A stretch of 64,000 nt of DNA from Frederiksenia canicola (GTDB lineage: Bacteria; Pseudomonadota; Gammaproteobacteria; Enterobacterales; Pasteurellaceae), in the NCBI RefSeq assembly GCF_011455495.1, contig NZ_CP015029.1, positions 1 to 64,000 of the forward strand, written 5' to 3'. Within the stretch, counting starts at the first letter, position 1. Every line of letters starts with the position of its first letter. The notes beneath the pieces are model-generated. The model made no database searches. It was not told where the DNA came from and was given only the letters and a program-made list of their open reading frames with translations. Shown one piece after another: positions 6,981-12,300 of this stretch. The translations under genes were made by a program, and so were the position numbers.

Positions 6981-7072
6981 TATATTGGCAACATATGCTG
7001 CGGAACTGACCGCTTGTGGCGGGTGGATATATAGCCATTCCCTACACATTATTTATTTCTATACGACAATTC

Positions 7073-7840
7073 ATGCCCACAAATCCAGCGCTACAATGGC
7101 TTACACACACCCGACAACAAGCAATTCGTTCTGTTGAAAAATTGACGGGGCTGACCGCTTGTAGCCAATTAGTTACCCTTGAAAACGGTGAACGTTATGT
7201 GCTGCGTAACCAAACCCAGAGGGCGAGCGATTTCGGGGTAAATTATCAACAGGAATCGCAAATTTTAGCGACAATCCGACCGCTTGCAATGGCCCCCAAT
7301 CCACTTTATGTCGATGCTCAACAAAGTTTACTTAGCTGGATTGATGGCAACGTGCCGACCGAATTTTCCCCCGCTCTTCTACAACAACTTGCCGAGCAGT
7401 TGGCGAAATTGCATCAATTTGACTTACAAGCGGTCAGTTCCAACGAAAATGTTACCATTCTAAATTTAACCGCCCGCTGCGAATTTTTATGGCAAAAGTT
7501 ACCTGCACAAACGCAAGTAGAGTTGCCTTTTTCACCGCCATTTCCGCAAATTGCACCTTTCGCCCAAGCTCTCTGTCATCACGATTTACACCTTGGCAAT
7601 TTGGTGGAGCAAGGCGATAAGCTGTTTATTATCGACTGGGAATATGCGGCGGTTTCCGATCCCGCTCTCGAGCTGGCGTTATTTTTGCATGCTAATCCGT
7701 TGTCAGAAACAGAGCAAGCGGTCTTTTTTCAACACTATTTTGCAAAAAATCCGCTTGTTCCGACCGCTTGTCAAAGAAAAATGACGGAATATCAGCCACT
7801 GATTGCGATACTCAACCAACTTTGGTATGCTTTCAGCTAG
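7073..7840 (+). CDS. thiK: Thiamine/choline kinase-like phosphotransferase
   Basis: This 255-aa protein has the aminoglycoside-phosphotransferase/choline-kinase fold. Seen in the sequence are the Brenner motif LCHHDLHLGNLV (His-x-Asp-x-x-x-x-Asn type, catalytic Asp), and IIDWEYAAVSDPALELALF, the metal-binding Asp-Trp-Glu block. The synteny hinT-ycfL-thiK suggests thiamine kinase, which phosphorylates thiamine to thiamine monophosphate in salvage. A choline-kinase-like role is an alternative. The ATG at 7073 was chosen over an upstream ATG at 7016 because family similarity begins there. The gene contains several uptake-signal cores, for example near 7151 and 7281. Confidence 0.75.
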   Translation: MPTNPALQWLTHTRQQAIRSVEKLTGLTACSQLVTLENGERYVLRNQTQRASDFGVNYQQESQILATIRPLAMAPNPLYVDAQQSLLSWIDGNVPTEFSPALLQQLAEQLAKLHQFDLQAVSSNENVTILNLTARCEFLWQKLPAQTQVELPFSPPFPQIAPFAQALCHHDLHLGNLVEQGDKLFIIDWEYAAVSDPALELALFLHANPLSETEQAVFFQHYFAKNPLVPTACQRKMTEYQPLIAILNQLWYAFS

Positions 7841-7859
7841 TTGTTGAGAACAATTCTCA
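7840..7859 (+). promoter_or_regulatory. Fur-box-like palindrome, upstream copy
   Basis: TGAGAACAATTCTCA at 7845-7859 is a near-perfect palindrome of the Fur type. A 19-base alignment to the classical Fur box (7840-7858) matches at about 12 positions by hand count. It lies 36 bp before a second, better box and overlaps the thiK stop. Confidence 0.55.
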
Positions 7860-7882
7860 TTTGTAAGGTTTTGTAAATCCAG

Positions 7883-7911
7883 TTGATCTGATTATTGAGA
7901 ACCATTATCAT
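7883..7911 (+). promoter_or_regulatory. Fur box overlapping a promoter for a short transcript
   Basis: A -35 TTGATC (7883-7888) and a -10 TATCAT (7906-7911) are separated by exactly 17 bp. The spacer and -10 are covered by TTATTGAGAACCATTATC, which matches 14 of 19 classical Fur-box positions (7891-7909) by hand count. Iron-loaded Fur bound here would block RNA polymerase, so the promoter should fire under iron starvation. The predicted start is near 7918. Confidence 0.65.
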
Positions 7912-7917
7912 CTAATC

Positions 7918-7988
7918 ACTTCAAAAATAATAGGTAATCACTCCAACTCTTACGCCGCACTCCCCCACAAAGTTGCGGCGTTTTTTTT
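7918..7988 (+). ncRNA. Candidate Fur-repressed small RNA (HrrF/RyhB-like role)
   Basis: The predicted transcript is about 70 nt, runs from a Fur-covered promoter to a strong intrinsic terminator, and contains no credible ORF. The terminator is CGCCGCA (7953-7959) paired with TGCGGCG (7974-7980), followed by eight T (7981-7988). The loop reads CTCCCCCACAAAGT; the exposed CUCCCCC could pair with Shine-Dalgarno GGGGAG/GGAG sequences. Haemophilus influenzae has a Fur-controlled sRNA, HrrF, reported to be conserved in the family. Whether this is its orthologue cannot be told without the sequence to compare. The alternative is that the hairpin is only the thiK terminator, but that would not explain the promoter and two Fur boxes. 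Confidence 0.6.
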
Positions 7989-8054
7989 CGCCTTTTTTGC
8001 CCGATTTCGCTATAATGCCCCGCATTTCAAATTCATAAAATATAAGGAAAATCA

Positions 8055-9248
8055 ATGAGCCAATCTCTTGAAACCACGCTCGCTGAACTAAAACGTGGCG
8101 TGGAAGATGTCTATTCAGAAGCTGACTTAATCGAAAAATTAAAAGAAAATCGCCCATTGCGTGTCAAATTAGGGGCAGATCCAACCGCGCCAGATATTCA
8201 TTTAGGGCATACGGTGGTATTAAATAAATTGCGTCAATTCCAACAGCTTGGACACGAAGTGATTTTCTTAATCGGCGATTTCACGGGAATGGTCGGCGAT
8301 CCATCCGGCAAAAACAGCACCCGTCCGCCGCTCACTCGTGAAGATGTGTTACGCAATGCGGAAACCTACAAACAACAAATTTTCAAAATTTTGGATCCGC
8401 AAAAAACTCGCATCGTGTTTAACTCTGAATGGCTGGGCGAGCTTGGCACTGAAGGGATGATCCGCTTGGCATCAAACTATACTGTTGCCCGCATGCTTGA
8501 GCGTGATGACTTCAAAAAACGTTTCAGCAACAATCAACCCATTGCGATCCACGAATTTATCTACCCATTATTGCAAGGGCACGACTCGGTGGCATTGCAC
8601 GCAGATGTCGAATTAGGTGGTACAGATCAAACCTTCAATTTGTTGATTGGGCGTGAGTTGCAAAAATCCGTAGGACAAAAACCACAAGTGGCGATGACCT
8701 TGCCATTGTTGGTGGGCTTAGACGGCGAGAAGAAAATGTCGAAATCGCTCGGCAACTACATCGGTGTCACCGAAGCACCAAGTGAAATGTTTGGTAAAGT
8801 GATGTCGATTTCCGATGAATTGATGTGGGACTGGTATAACTTGCTCTCATTCCGACCGCTTGATGAAATCGCTCAATTCAAAGCCGACGTAGCAAACGGC
8901 AAAAACCCACGAGATGTAAAAATTCTGTTAGCCAAAGAGATCATTGCTCGTTTCCACAGCGAAGCTGATGCCGATGCGGCAGAGCAAGAATTTATCAACC
9001 GCTTCCAAAAAGGTGCGATGCCAGACGAAATGCCTGAATTTACCTTTGAAGGCGAAATCGGCTTGGCGAACTTGCTCAAAGAAGCGGGTTTGGTAGCGTC
9101 AACTTCTGAAGCGATCCGCTCTGTCAATCAAGGCGGTGTGAAAATTGATGGCGAGAAAGTTGAAGATTCAAAATTAGTGATCCAAGCAGGCACCACCGCA
9201 GTTTACCAAGTGGGTAAGCGCAAATTTGCACGAGTAACAGTGAAGTAG
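8055..9248 (+). CDS. tyrS: Tyrosyl-tRNA synthetase
   Basis: This class I aminoacyl-tRNA synthetase charges tRNA-Tyr. It is 397 aa, like the TyrRS subgroup common in Haemophilus and Pseudomonas. The HIGH-like motif is HLGH at residues 49-52 within [12 protein letters not shown]. The tyrosine-site block is [13 protein letters not shown], and KMSKS is at 227-231. The C-terminal about 65 residues ([27 protein letters not shown] and on) form an S4 RNA-binding domain. AAGGAAAATCA precedes the ATG, and TATAAT at 8011-8016 is a good -10 element. The gene marks the left border of the CRISPR/tad accessory block. Confidence 0.97.
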
Positions 9249-9346: not shown

Positions 9347-12300
9347 GATTCAGCTCCCAGCTAGATTTAGGTGGCTGGTACTGCCATTCCGAATGCGTTG
9401 CTAGATGCGATTTTGGTTTAAACACACAGCCACGCGTAGGTGGCTGGATATTTTCAATGTTAAAAGGGGGGATAGAAATATGACGTTTAAACACACAGCC
9501 ACGCGTAGGTGGCTGGGATCTAATAATGCCGACAGATTAGCTTTGTCGGTCGTTTAAACACACAGCCACGCGTAGGTGGCTGGTAGCCCCGCTCGGGTGC
9601 GAACAGGGGCAGTGGTTGTTTAAACACACAGCCACGCGTAGGTGGCTGGTTGGGGCAACCTATTACTTTGCCTTTGAAGCCTTGGTTTAAACACACAGCC
9701 ACGCGTAGGTGGCTGGGCTCATGCAAAATGGATAACATCACTTTTCTCGTGTTTAAACACACAGCCACGCGTAGGTGGCTGGACTATCAGAGTGAAAACT
9801 TCAGAGTGGTGGGCATGTTTAAACACACAGCCACGCGTAGGTGGCTGGCTACCACCCCGAAGATATTAAGCTGATTAACGTAGTTTAAACACACAGCCAC
9901 GCGTAGGTGGCTGGGTCGCCAATGGATCGCAAAGCTTTTTACCAGTCTGTTTAAACACACAGCCACGCGTAGGTGGCTGGCGCTATCAGGATAGTGAGTT
10001 GATTTATCTACCTTGTGGTTTAAACACACAGCCACGCGTAGGTGGCTGGGGAGCGGTCAGCAATTTTGCCGATCGCCATCAAGCGTTTAAACACACAGCC
10101 ACGCGTAGGTGGCTGGGCAGAGCTTGGACTATTTGCTCTACGCCCTTTACTTGTTTAAACACACAGCCACGCGTAGGTGGCTGGTCTTCACTTAACTCAA
10201 ATGATTTTTTTTCTTTGGGTTTAAACACACAGCCACGCGTAGGTGGCTGGCACCACCAAACTCTATTTTTGTGATCTGTGTCGAGTTTAAACACACAGCC
10301 ACGCGTAGGTGGCTGGCACCAATAAGGGTGTTCCTTTGTGCTATTAGAGATTGTTTAAACACACAGCCACGCGTAGGTGGCTGGTTGCCGTATGATTTAC
10401 CCAAATCACACAAAAGGAGTTTAAACACACAGCCACGCGTAGGTGGCTGGATTGAGTTATGCGAAAAAGGCAGTCAATGAGCTAGTTTAAACACACAGCC
10501 ACGCGTAGGTGGCTGGCACCAATAAGGGTGTTCCTTTGTGCTATTAGAGATTGTTTAAACACACAGCCACGCGTAGGTGGCTGGGCATCAAACATTGATT
10601 TGTCTTGCATATAAATCGAGTTTAAACACACAGCCACGCGTAGGTGGCTGGCCATAGTAAAATAGCCTTGTTTTCAGTGATTAGTTGTTTAAACACACAG
10701 CCACGCGTAGGTGGCTGGGCGTTAGTGATGGATGCCACCGAAGAGCTGATCGATGTTTAAACACACAGCCACGCGTAGGTGGCTGGCTTCTATTTTTGAG
10801 CGAGTGCCGCCCCGCATCGCGTTTAAACACACAGCCACGCGTAGGTGGCTGGTTCTTAAAAAAATAAAGGAAATATATTCCTAAATGTTTAAACACACAG
10901 CCACGCGTAGGTGGCTGGCTTACTCACGAAAGACAACATCAGTCAGTATGTTGGGTTTAAACACACAGCCACGCGTAGGTGGCTGGCGCCTTTAGCGTGA
11001 GGTTCGTTGCATTTTGCAACAAGTTTAAACACACAGCCACGCGTAGGTGGCTGGCTGCAGTGGTTGGGTTAGGTCTTCTTCAAATACAGCAGTTTAAACA
11101 CACAGCCACGCGTAGGTGGCTGGCCAGACTCTTACTTCATTAGAGAGTGCTTATCGTGTTTAAACACACAGCCACGCGTAGGTGGCTGGAAGGAGGTACT
11201 TGCATCAGCCTAAAACGTAAAAATGTTTAAACACACAGCCACGCGTAGGTGGCTGGGTTTTCCGCACGCAACAGATTTTGATTAGTGAAGGGTTTAAACA
11301 CACAGCCACGCGTAGGTGGCTGGGGCAGTTAGCTTTGATTTGCTCAGAGCGTAGGAAGTTTAAACACACAGCCACGCGTAGGTGGCTGGATATGGCATCT
11401 GTATTTCGTGCCATTGCTGTATGGTTTAAACACACAGCCACGCGTAGGTGGCTGGAGGTGCACCATGTCTATCAGCAAACTTCTGATGATGTTTAAACAC
11501 ACAGCCACGCGTAGGTGGCTGGTCAAACCTGATATCATCTACGTACACCAGTATAAACGTTTAAACACACAGCCACGCGTAGGTGGCTGGATCCGTTCCA
11601 TGAGATTCTGGTAGTACCAATTACCGAGTTTAAACACACAGCCACGCGTAGGTGGCTGGGTTTACTCAACGCATAGGTGACATCATCTCTGCTGAGTTTA
11701 AACACACAGCCACGCGTAGGTGGCTGGGGTGCAAATGAGGGGCGAGATTTTTTGAGCTTAGGTGTTTAAACACACAGCCACGCGTAGGTGGCTGGTATGG
11801 TCGAGGACGTAATCGGGGGGATCACGAATGTTTAAACACACAGCCACGCGTAGGTGGCTGGAGAAAAAAAATAAATCGATCGAGAAAAATAGATCGTTTA
11901 AACACACAGCCACGCGTAGGTGGCTGGATCTGTTTTATGACACACCTTTTGTATGTCGATTGGTTTAAACACACAGCCACGCGTAGGTGGCTGGACCTGA
12001 CCGAACATCTGAATATCTTTGGCATTGGTTTAAACACACAGCCACGCGTAGGTGGCTGGTAGTTGACCACATTGAGGATAAACTACAGTCATTTGTTTAA
12101 ACACACAGCCACGCGTAGGTGGCTGGCCTAGAATAGCCGTATGTCCTAAGTGCATATCGCCAGTTTAAACACACAGCCACGCGTAGGTGGCTGGGACAAT
12201 AAACGGAGCTGTCTATTAGATACCACGATGTTTAAACACACAGCCACGCGTAGGTGGCTGGACGCAAAATTGAGTTTAAGCGTAGCGTATTTCATGTTTA

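Follow-up and report, generated by a model that had tools for sequence, protein, structure and literature searches.

The window analyzed here, 64,000 nucleotides of Frederiksenia canicola (contig NZ_CP015029.1, positions 1 to 64,000), contains an intergenic region between a thiK-like gene and tyrS in which a small RNA (sRNA) gene is predicted (Table 1). A preliminary description of this DNA had placed two Fur-type palindromes, a promoter, and an intrinsic terminator in the interval, and reading of the sequence found all of them in place. The 5' end of the sRNA was set from the position of the -10 hexamer, and the covariance model described below matches the F. canicola copy at G000:C1:7911-7988 with 101.9 bits. 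The score of the thiK-like gene lies below the curated cut-off of the family TIGR02721.

Table 1. Features of the thiK-like/tyrS interval of F. canicola (window positions)
Feature	Position	Strand	Basis or remark
thiK-like gene	7073..7840	+	Upstream neighbor; NCBIfam TIGR02721, thiamine kinase, E 4e-39
Fur-type palindrome 1, TGAGAACAATTCTCA	7845..7859		Upstream palindrome, read from the sequence
-35 hexamer TTGATC	7883..7888	+	Promoter TTGATC-N17-TATCAT spans 7883-7911
Fur-type box (palindrome 2), ATTATTGAGAACCATTATC	7891..7909		Over the spacer and -10; 14/19 to consensus
-10 hexamer TATCAT	7906..7911	+	Promoter scan
Predicted small RNA, ~71 nt	7918..7988	+	Covariance model and fold z-score
Nearly invariant 13-nt core, TAATCACTCCAAC	7935..7947	+	Proposed seed; conservation, folds, target tests
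Intrinsic terminator stem-loop	7952..7981	+	Compensatory stem changes
Terminator arms ACGCCGCA/TGCGGCGT	7952-7959 and 7974-7981	+	Sequence; loop CTCCCCCACAAAGT
C-rich terminator loop, CCCCCACA	7962..7969	+	Possible second pairing site; CCCCAC family-wide
U tract, eight T	7981..7988	+	Sequence
Likely -10 of tyrS itself, TATAAT	8011..8016	+	3' of the terminator; sequence
tyrS	8055..9248	+	NCBIfam TIGR00234; downstream neighbor, not thought part of the sRNA unit

A promoter of this kind is at chance level in the window, one being found against a mean of 1.5 in shuffled sequence. The terminator scan of the window did not list the sRNA terminator, whose loop exceeds the 8-nt loop maximum of the scan. 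The fold z-score of the sRNA is -3.56, and only 1 of 200 shuffled sequences folds as well. It is this z-score, together with conservation in 137 of 140 genomes and the enrichment of Fur-type boxes (see below), that sets the sRNA above chance. In the predicted folds the terminator is the only sizeable hairpin, and the core is largely unpaired, one fold of three pairing a few of its bases weakly. Shortly after tyrS there is a CRISPR array, which extends from window position 9416 to about 12600 and has 48 in-register repeats, beginning GTTTAAACACACAGCCACGCGTAGGTGGCTGG, at a spacing of ~66-69 nt.

Distribution and conservation in Pasteurellaceae

Searched at E 0.1, the 214-nt intergenic stretch has matches in 139 of 140 Pasteurellaceae genomes, the weakest of which was taken as chance. 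Covariance model R1, which had no base pairs and in which the alignment had misplaced the terminator arms, was discarded. Model R2, composed of 12 sequences with the stem supplied by hand and thus a narrow seed for distant members, identified the sRNA at E 0.01 in 137 of the 140 genomes and in 42 of 43 genera, with no match in three genomes (G013, G117, and G127). In a sample of 394 Enterobacterales genomes, all 33 matches at E 0.001 fell within Pasteurellaceae, a count that misses at least one family member of the sample (G119). The surroundings of all 137 best matches were compared. Six weak secondary matches (L268-L273) that lack the core were dropped as chance.

Of the 137 copies, 127 have exactly the core TAATCACTCCAAC, CCCCAC near the terminator loop is kept in 129, and a run of at least six T is present in 130. 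Among the 12 aligned seed sequences, the terminator stem has double-sided changes at 4 of its 10 pairs. A larger alignment, fitted to the model, holds 104 matches (101 distinct rows) taken from 100 of the 137 loci, two of these matches being tandem copies and two being weak secondary ones. In it, such changes occur at all 10 pairs, 95.2% of cells are paired, and 236 stem cells are changed on both sides against a shuffled mean of 56. Because core and loop are nearly invariant while the stem changes in a compensatory way, selection appears to preserve both of these segments and the capacity to fold, leaving the letters of the stem free to change. Tandem copies of the RNA are found at L156 (G103; 1298-1376 and 1501-1578) and at L180 (G030; 1267-1345 and 1426-1504); at L027, which is the same place in G103, a promoter and a Fur-type box are present on both copies.

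Conservation among relatives had been named in advance as a check, and it held: the promoter, the Fur box, and the terminator are kept in other Pasteurellaceae along with the RNA. Boxes were scored against the 19-bp Fur consensus, to which palindrome 2 owes its score in Table 1; over palindrome 1, the best 19-mer starting in 7836-7850 reaches 12/19. A Fur-like box scoring at least 14/19 lies within 120 nt 5' of the core in 78 of the 137 copies, and one scoring at least 13/19 in 116, a count in which locus L258 offers only 58 nt of upstream sequence. In random stretches of the same loci, coding DNA included, these scores are reached in 6 and 43 of 2,217 cases, and in shuffled upstream stretches of the same A+T content in 38 and 209 of 2,740. 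A second upstream Fur-type box is visible in many relatives.

The pentamer TATCA is found within 90 nt 5' of the core in 132 of the 137 copies, 23 to 24 nt from the core in 89 of those, and is lacking from the examined stretch in the other 5. A TTGACA-like -35 hexamer (at least 4/6) lies 16 to 18 nt 5' of the -10 in 104 of the 137. The order of elements in the family is one or more Fur-type boxes, a TTGACA-like -35, TATCA(T), usually 23 to 24 nt, the core, and the terminator. The Haemophilus aegyptius and H. haemolyticus loci carry the RNA with a Fur-type box. A putative Fur operator over a sigma-70 promoter, followed by an intergenic RNA with its own terminator, is the arrangement of the class of Fur-repressed sRNAs. 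In genus g38 and in one genome of genus g18, about 20 nt more separate promoter and core, making the RNA longer by ~20 nt (L251, L253, L256, L258-L263, and L265-L267).

Relation to tyrS, HrrF, and other small RNAs

In 105 of the 137 loci, tyrS follows the RNA on the same strand, starting 75 to 696 nt past the loop motif, and in none of the 137 fetched stretches is it on the opposite strand. From the fetched stretches of the other 32 loci, tyrS is absent. One upstream protein family, identified as SfsA by Pfam for one member, is common to 83 of the 137 loci, including 26 of the 32 loci without tyrS. The simplest history is an ancestral order sfsA-RNA-tyrS with later breaks.

The constant orientation of tyrS would suit a Fur-controlled leader or attenuator, in which transcripts from the Fur promoter either terminate or run on into tyrS. 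We regard this as very unlikely: tyrS has a likely TATAAT box of its own 3' of the terminator (a similar box is visible at the same place in many of the relatives inspected, whether the RNA is present or absent), the RNA is predicted to have no sizeable hairpin besides its terminator, and it is kept in the 32 loci without tyrS in the fetched stretch, 26 of which retain the SfsA-type family upstream, a point that disfavors a tyrS leader. That the locus encodes a small peptide is suggested by nothing more than its size, and this reading has a negligible chance of being right; it was rejected because the 71 nt contain no ATG or GTG, only one TTG that lies inside the terminator, and conservation follows the stem and the core, not codons. 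The preliminary description had identified the RNA with HrrF or a functional counterpart. A local copy of HrrF would have the same type of regulator, a similar size, and the same host family, and CUCCAAC occurs in most copies seen of both RNAs. Identity with HrrF can nevertheless hardly be upheld. The HrrF model RF02728 has no match at E 0.001 in the genome of F. canicola or of its one congener, none at E 5 in window positions 7000-9000, and none in the tyrS-upstream stretches scanned (the window and 20 related loci). HrrF is reported to lie between pmbA and hpt (PMC4144887, as far as its text was available), and the RNA described here lies between a thiK-like gene and tyrS. Moreover, 95 of 140 genomes carry both RNAs, a coexistence that refutes orthology.

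HrrF and the tyrS-upstream RNA are alike in being intergenic sRNAs of Pasteurellaceae with Fur boxes; in F. canicola a predicted Fur-type box lies at the promoter (7891-7909), in line with the family-wide enrichment. They differ in sequence and in length, HrrF being reported as about 97 to 126 nt in the text available. RF02728 matches 97 of the 140 family genomes at E 0.001 (62 above the gathering score), as against 137 for the tyrS-upstream RNA, a comparison in which models and thresholds differ; two of the three genomes lacking the latter have HrrF. CTCCAAC is common to the tyrS-upstream RNA and most of 20 HrrF loci inspected, perhaps through convergence on Shine-Dalgarno words. The HrrF copies at L111-L123, L127, L128, and L130 contain CTCCAA(C), in most of them inside TTGCTCCAACAGG.

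In the available part of its report, HrrF is named as the sRNA that Fur regulates in H. influenzae, and six targets, few of them iron proteins, are given for it (PMC4144887); modABC, asnA, asnC, and nrdB are named there (PMC4144887). RNA sequencing of an H. influenzae fur mutant gave HrrF as the sole Fur-dependent sRNA, according to the same partial text (PMC4144887), which argues against the tyrS-upstream RNA being abundant and Fur controlled under the conditions of that study. Our guess is that an RNA of ~75 nt may have been lost in library making. The available text on an Hfq pull-down in Actinobacillus pleuropneumoniae does not report the RNA.

Scans of the window and of 20 related loci, two of which (L040 and L216) are the same place, gave no match of the RNA to any family of Rfam release 15. 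Subthreshold matches of bxd_5, RAGATH-25, and sR30 lie inside tyrS and were rejected, as they look like chance. The tyrS locus of Aggregatibacter actinomycetemcomitans (L040) carries the RNA, and the models of JA01 to JA04 (RF02729-RF02732), which resemble it as iron- or Fur-regulated sRNAs of that family member in the parts of the reports available (PMC4144887 and PMC5753348), have no match there at E values up to 1, nor in the other loci scanned. In A. actinomycetemcomitans 624, two sRNAs are described as upregulated in iron restriction and bound by Fur in chromatin immunoprecipitation sequencing; one is a homolog of HrrF, and the other is predicted to target nitrite reductase (PMC5156373, from the portion available). 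From this partial account, the second may be the tyrS-upstream RNA; if so, the novelty of our RNA is lower and confidence in its mechanism is higher. We found no published description of the tyrS-upstream RNA in the open-licence literature, and a search of plasmids returned two matches to the tyrS region, with nothing over the RNA. In A. actinomycetemcomitans, a different RNA, AaHKsRNA22 (RF02902), is located immediately beyond tyrS on its 3' side (L040, 3727-3824, minus strand); in G017 it is found ~0.9 kb upstream of the tyrS-upstream RNA (L210, 341-439, minus strand).

Predicted targets of the core

A family-wide search for the core complement ahead of a start codon (TTGGAGTGATT-N0-14-ATG) returned 196 matches in 99 of 140 genomes, compared with about 24 for the reversed pattern (hand count). 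With a rearranged word in which TTGGAG was retained, there were 92 matches in 41 of 140 genomes (hand count), a number that narrows the enrichment at the level of counts; 38 of these 92 sit in a single repeat-bearing genome, G086. On its contig C1, TTGGAGATGTTTGATG recurs many times, giving the 38 pattern matches, and is apparently a dispersed repeat. The 196 matches are not independent, since related species repeat the same genes, and among those listed at least 35 have the spacing of ccmD and at least 10 are the antisense of the RNA itself (hand count).

We examined 70 of the 196 loci: 30 returned by the search tool and 40 chosen by us, one per apparent group. They comprise 4 cases of RNA antisense (L311-L313 and L326), 8 matches in ccmD codons, 22 loci with no open frame of 50 amino acids from the ATG, and 36 genes, whose names come from NCBIfam and Pfam or from an N-terminal match to a named member. 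These 36 genes belong to 19 families, and 26 of them, in 11 families, encode iron or heme proteins: Hcp (6 genes), formate dehydrogenase-N alpha (4), a LutA/LdhH-like CCG protein (4), a 4Fe-4S NAD(P)-binding oxidoreductase (3), CyaY (2), HybO (2), and HemN, IlvD, LeuC, a TorC-like protein, and Hmp (1 each). The other 8 families have no clear link to iron; they are SirB-like (2) and pilin-like (2) proteins and, with 1 gene each, UxaB, DppC, DUF5363, an internal start in Lgt, an ICE protein, and a porin recognized by eye. As a control, 20 loci of the rearranged word, picked by us, gave 9 genes, 1 of which is heme linked (CcmC).

The 8 ccmD matches were set aside because the seed lies within conserved codons. 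The first codons of this heme exporter gene hold the seed complement at a constant place (L314-L316, L319, L322, L325, L329, and L372), which could reflect either constraint on the protein or another type of target site. SirB-like genes in two genera (L306 and L352) have the core complement at their start, and one in a third genus (G105:C1:449027) has the complement of the C-rich loop.

At the 30 best-matching hcp loci and the 30 best-matching fdnG loci of each search, the mean longest run of pairing with the core at the start is 7.83 and 8.73, respectively, and both means lie above every value obtained with 200 shuffled cores in which CTCC was retained. The match depends on the clade: the run is only 4 at 10 of the 30 hcp starts and 5 to 6 at 10 of the 30 fdnG starts. 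As expected, this fits a target set that changes, yet it limits the claim. The predicted pairing gives the core a clade-dependent complementarity to the translation starts of iron proteins, a property of the class of iron-sparing sRNAs.

F. canicola itself has no hcp match at E 1e-50 and no full 11-nt match to the core complement followed by ATG. The shorter pattern GGAGTG-N3-12-ATG has 64 matches in this genome and its reverse has 29, and the stretches inspected (15 loci and 20 stretches) cover part of the 64. The start of fdnG (formate dehydrogenase-N alpha) reads GGAGTGATT followed by ATG, a run of ten; shorter matches to the core stand at the starts of hmp, napB, ccmE, dppC, and dppA, and core-motif starts also include that of ModE and those of genes not linked to iron, such as a KdsD-like isomerase. 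In duplex energies, with 500 shuffles of the 5' part of the RNA, the number of shuffles at least as low was 0 for dppC, 3 for dppA, 4 for the KdsD-like gene, 8 each for fdnG and napB, 13 for modE, 27 for hmp, and 35 for ccmE. The KdsD-like gene thus scores as well as fdnG, and hmp and ccmE score worse. Predictions from F. canicola alone are weak and do not in themselves favor iron genes. Allowing one mismatch in the 11-mer was too noisy (250 matches versus 167 for the reversed pattern).

The preliminary description had put the pairing segment in the C-rich terminator loop. The loop is indeed conserved, and its complement matched at 39 places in 5 genomes, compared with 14 places for the reverse; 2 of the 39 are the antisense of the RNA itself (G001 and G061). 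Among 30 of these loci that were fetched, 9 open frames of at least 60 amino acids were listed; they include a weak SirB2-like match, GlpA in F. canicola, an RsxC-like protein recognized by eye, and further frames that have no link to iron. These matches are anecdotal, and a role of the loop as a pairing seed is suggestive. The stronger candidate, and the best-supported segment, is the core at 7935-7947, which had gone unmentioned.

A different reading of the same data is that the RNA, with its Fur-type box, has targets that are not specially iron proteins: the core would be a general anti-Shine-Dalgarno sequence, and the bias toward iron would come from the picking of loci. Our sampling gives this some ground, as 70 of the 196 matches were examined and 40 of them were of our choosing, the control set is small and likewise chosen by us (9 genes from 20 loci), and the rearranged word still yields 92 matches. 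The first 30 loci, returned by the tool, nevertheless include hcp, fdnG, cyaY, and the iron-sulfur oxidoreductase, and the shuffled cores, which retain CTCC, never attain the observed mean pairing. On balance, we consider a target set without preference for iron proteins unlikely.

Proposed function and significance

Our main reading, to which we assign a probability of roughly 0.8, is that the locus is a stand-alone gene for a Fur-repressed, iron-sparing sRNA whose core blocks the ribosome-binding sites of iron-protein mRNAs. Computation shows the anatomy of the gene, its conservation, the covariation of the stem, the enrichment of Fur-type boxes, and an excess over the controls of seed matches at the starts of iron-protein genes; from this evidence we infer transcription, binding by Fur, a response to iron, repression of targets, and any role of Hfq. 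Fur-Fe(II), acting at the predicted box on the promoter, would keep the gene repressed, and iron scarcity would lift the repression. Its product would have a largely unstructured 5' part carrying the nearly invariant 13-nt core (UAAUCACUCCAAC) and would end in the terminator hairpin with its conserved C-rich loop. On mRNAs that encode iron-sulfur and heme proteins, the core would pair at the Shine-Dalgarno region, GUUGGAGUGAUUA or a shorter form of it, and this pairing would block ribosome entry, so that iron is spared. Hence, of the earlier proposal of a Fur-repressed, iron-sparing counterpart of HrrF, the functional part is favored by the conservation, the Fur-type boxes, and the target search, and the identity with HrrF has been given up.

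RyhB of Escherichia coli is repressed by Fur and pairs near the ribosome-binding sites of mRNAs for iron proteins. The tyrS-upstream RNA is similar in concept and differs in that it shows no RyhB sequence-family match, the RyhB model of Rfam having none in the window or the related loci scanned; a likeness to RyhB in function only is the best reading. FsrA, IsrR, PrrF, and NrrF are other Fur-controlled iron-sparing sRNAs from other lineages, and several of them are described with C-rich single-stranded segments directed against Shine-Dalgarno sequences. They share the logic proposed here, and Rfam scans were the one means by which their sequences were compared with the RNA.

A broader proposal, which we hold at slightly better than even odds, is that this RNA is an ancestral iron-sparing sRNA of all Pasteurellaceae, missed so far on account of its small size and its silence in iron-replete cells. 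HrrF would then be its less widespread partner, both the core and the C-rich loop would pair, and the ribosome-binding sites of many iron-protein genes would have been shaped in evolution to match the core. As a second RNA beside HrrF, with complementarity to the starts of many iron-sulfur and heme genes, it would supply the missing iron-sparing arm in the family to which H. influenzae, Actinobacillus, Pasteurella, and Aggregatibacter belong, and its core provides an exact, short seed that is open to test.
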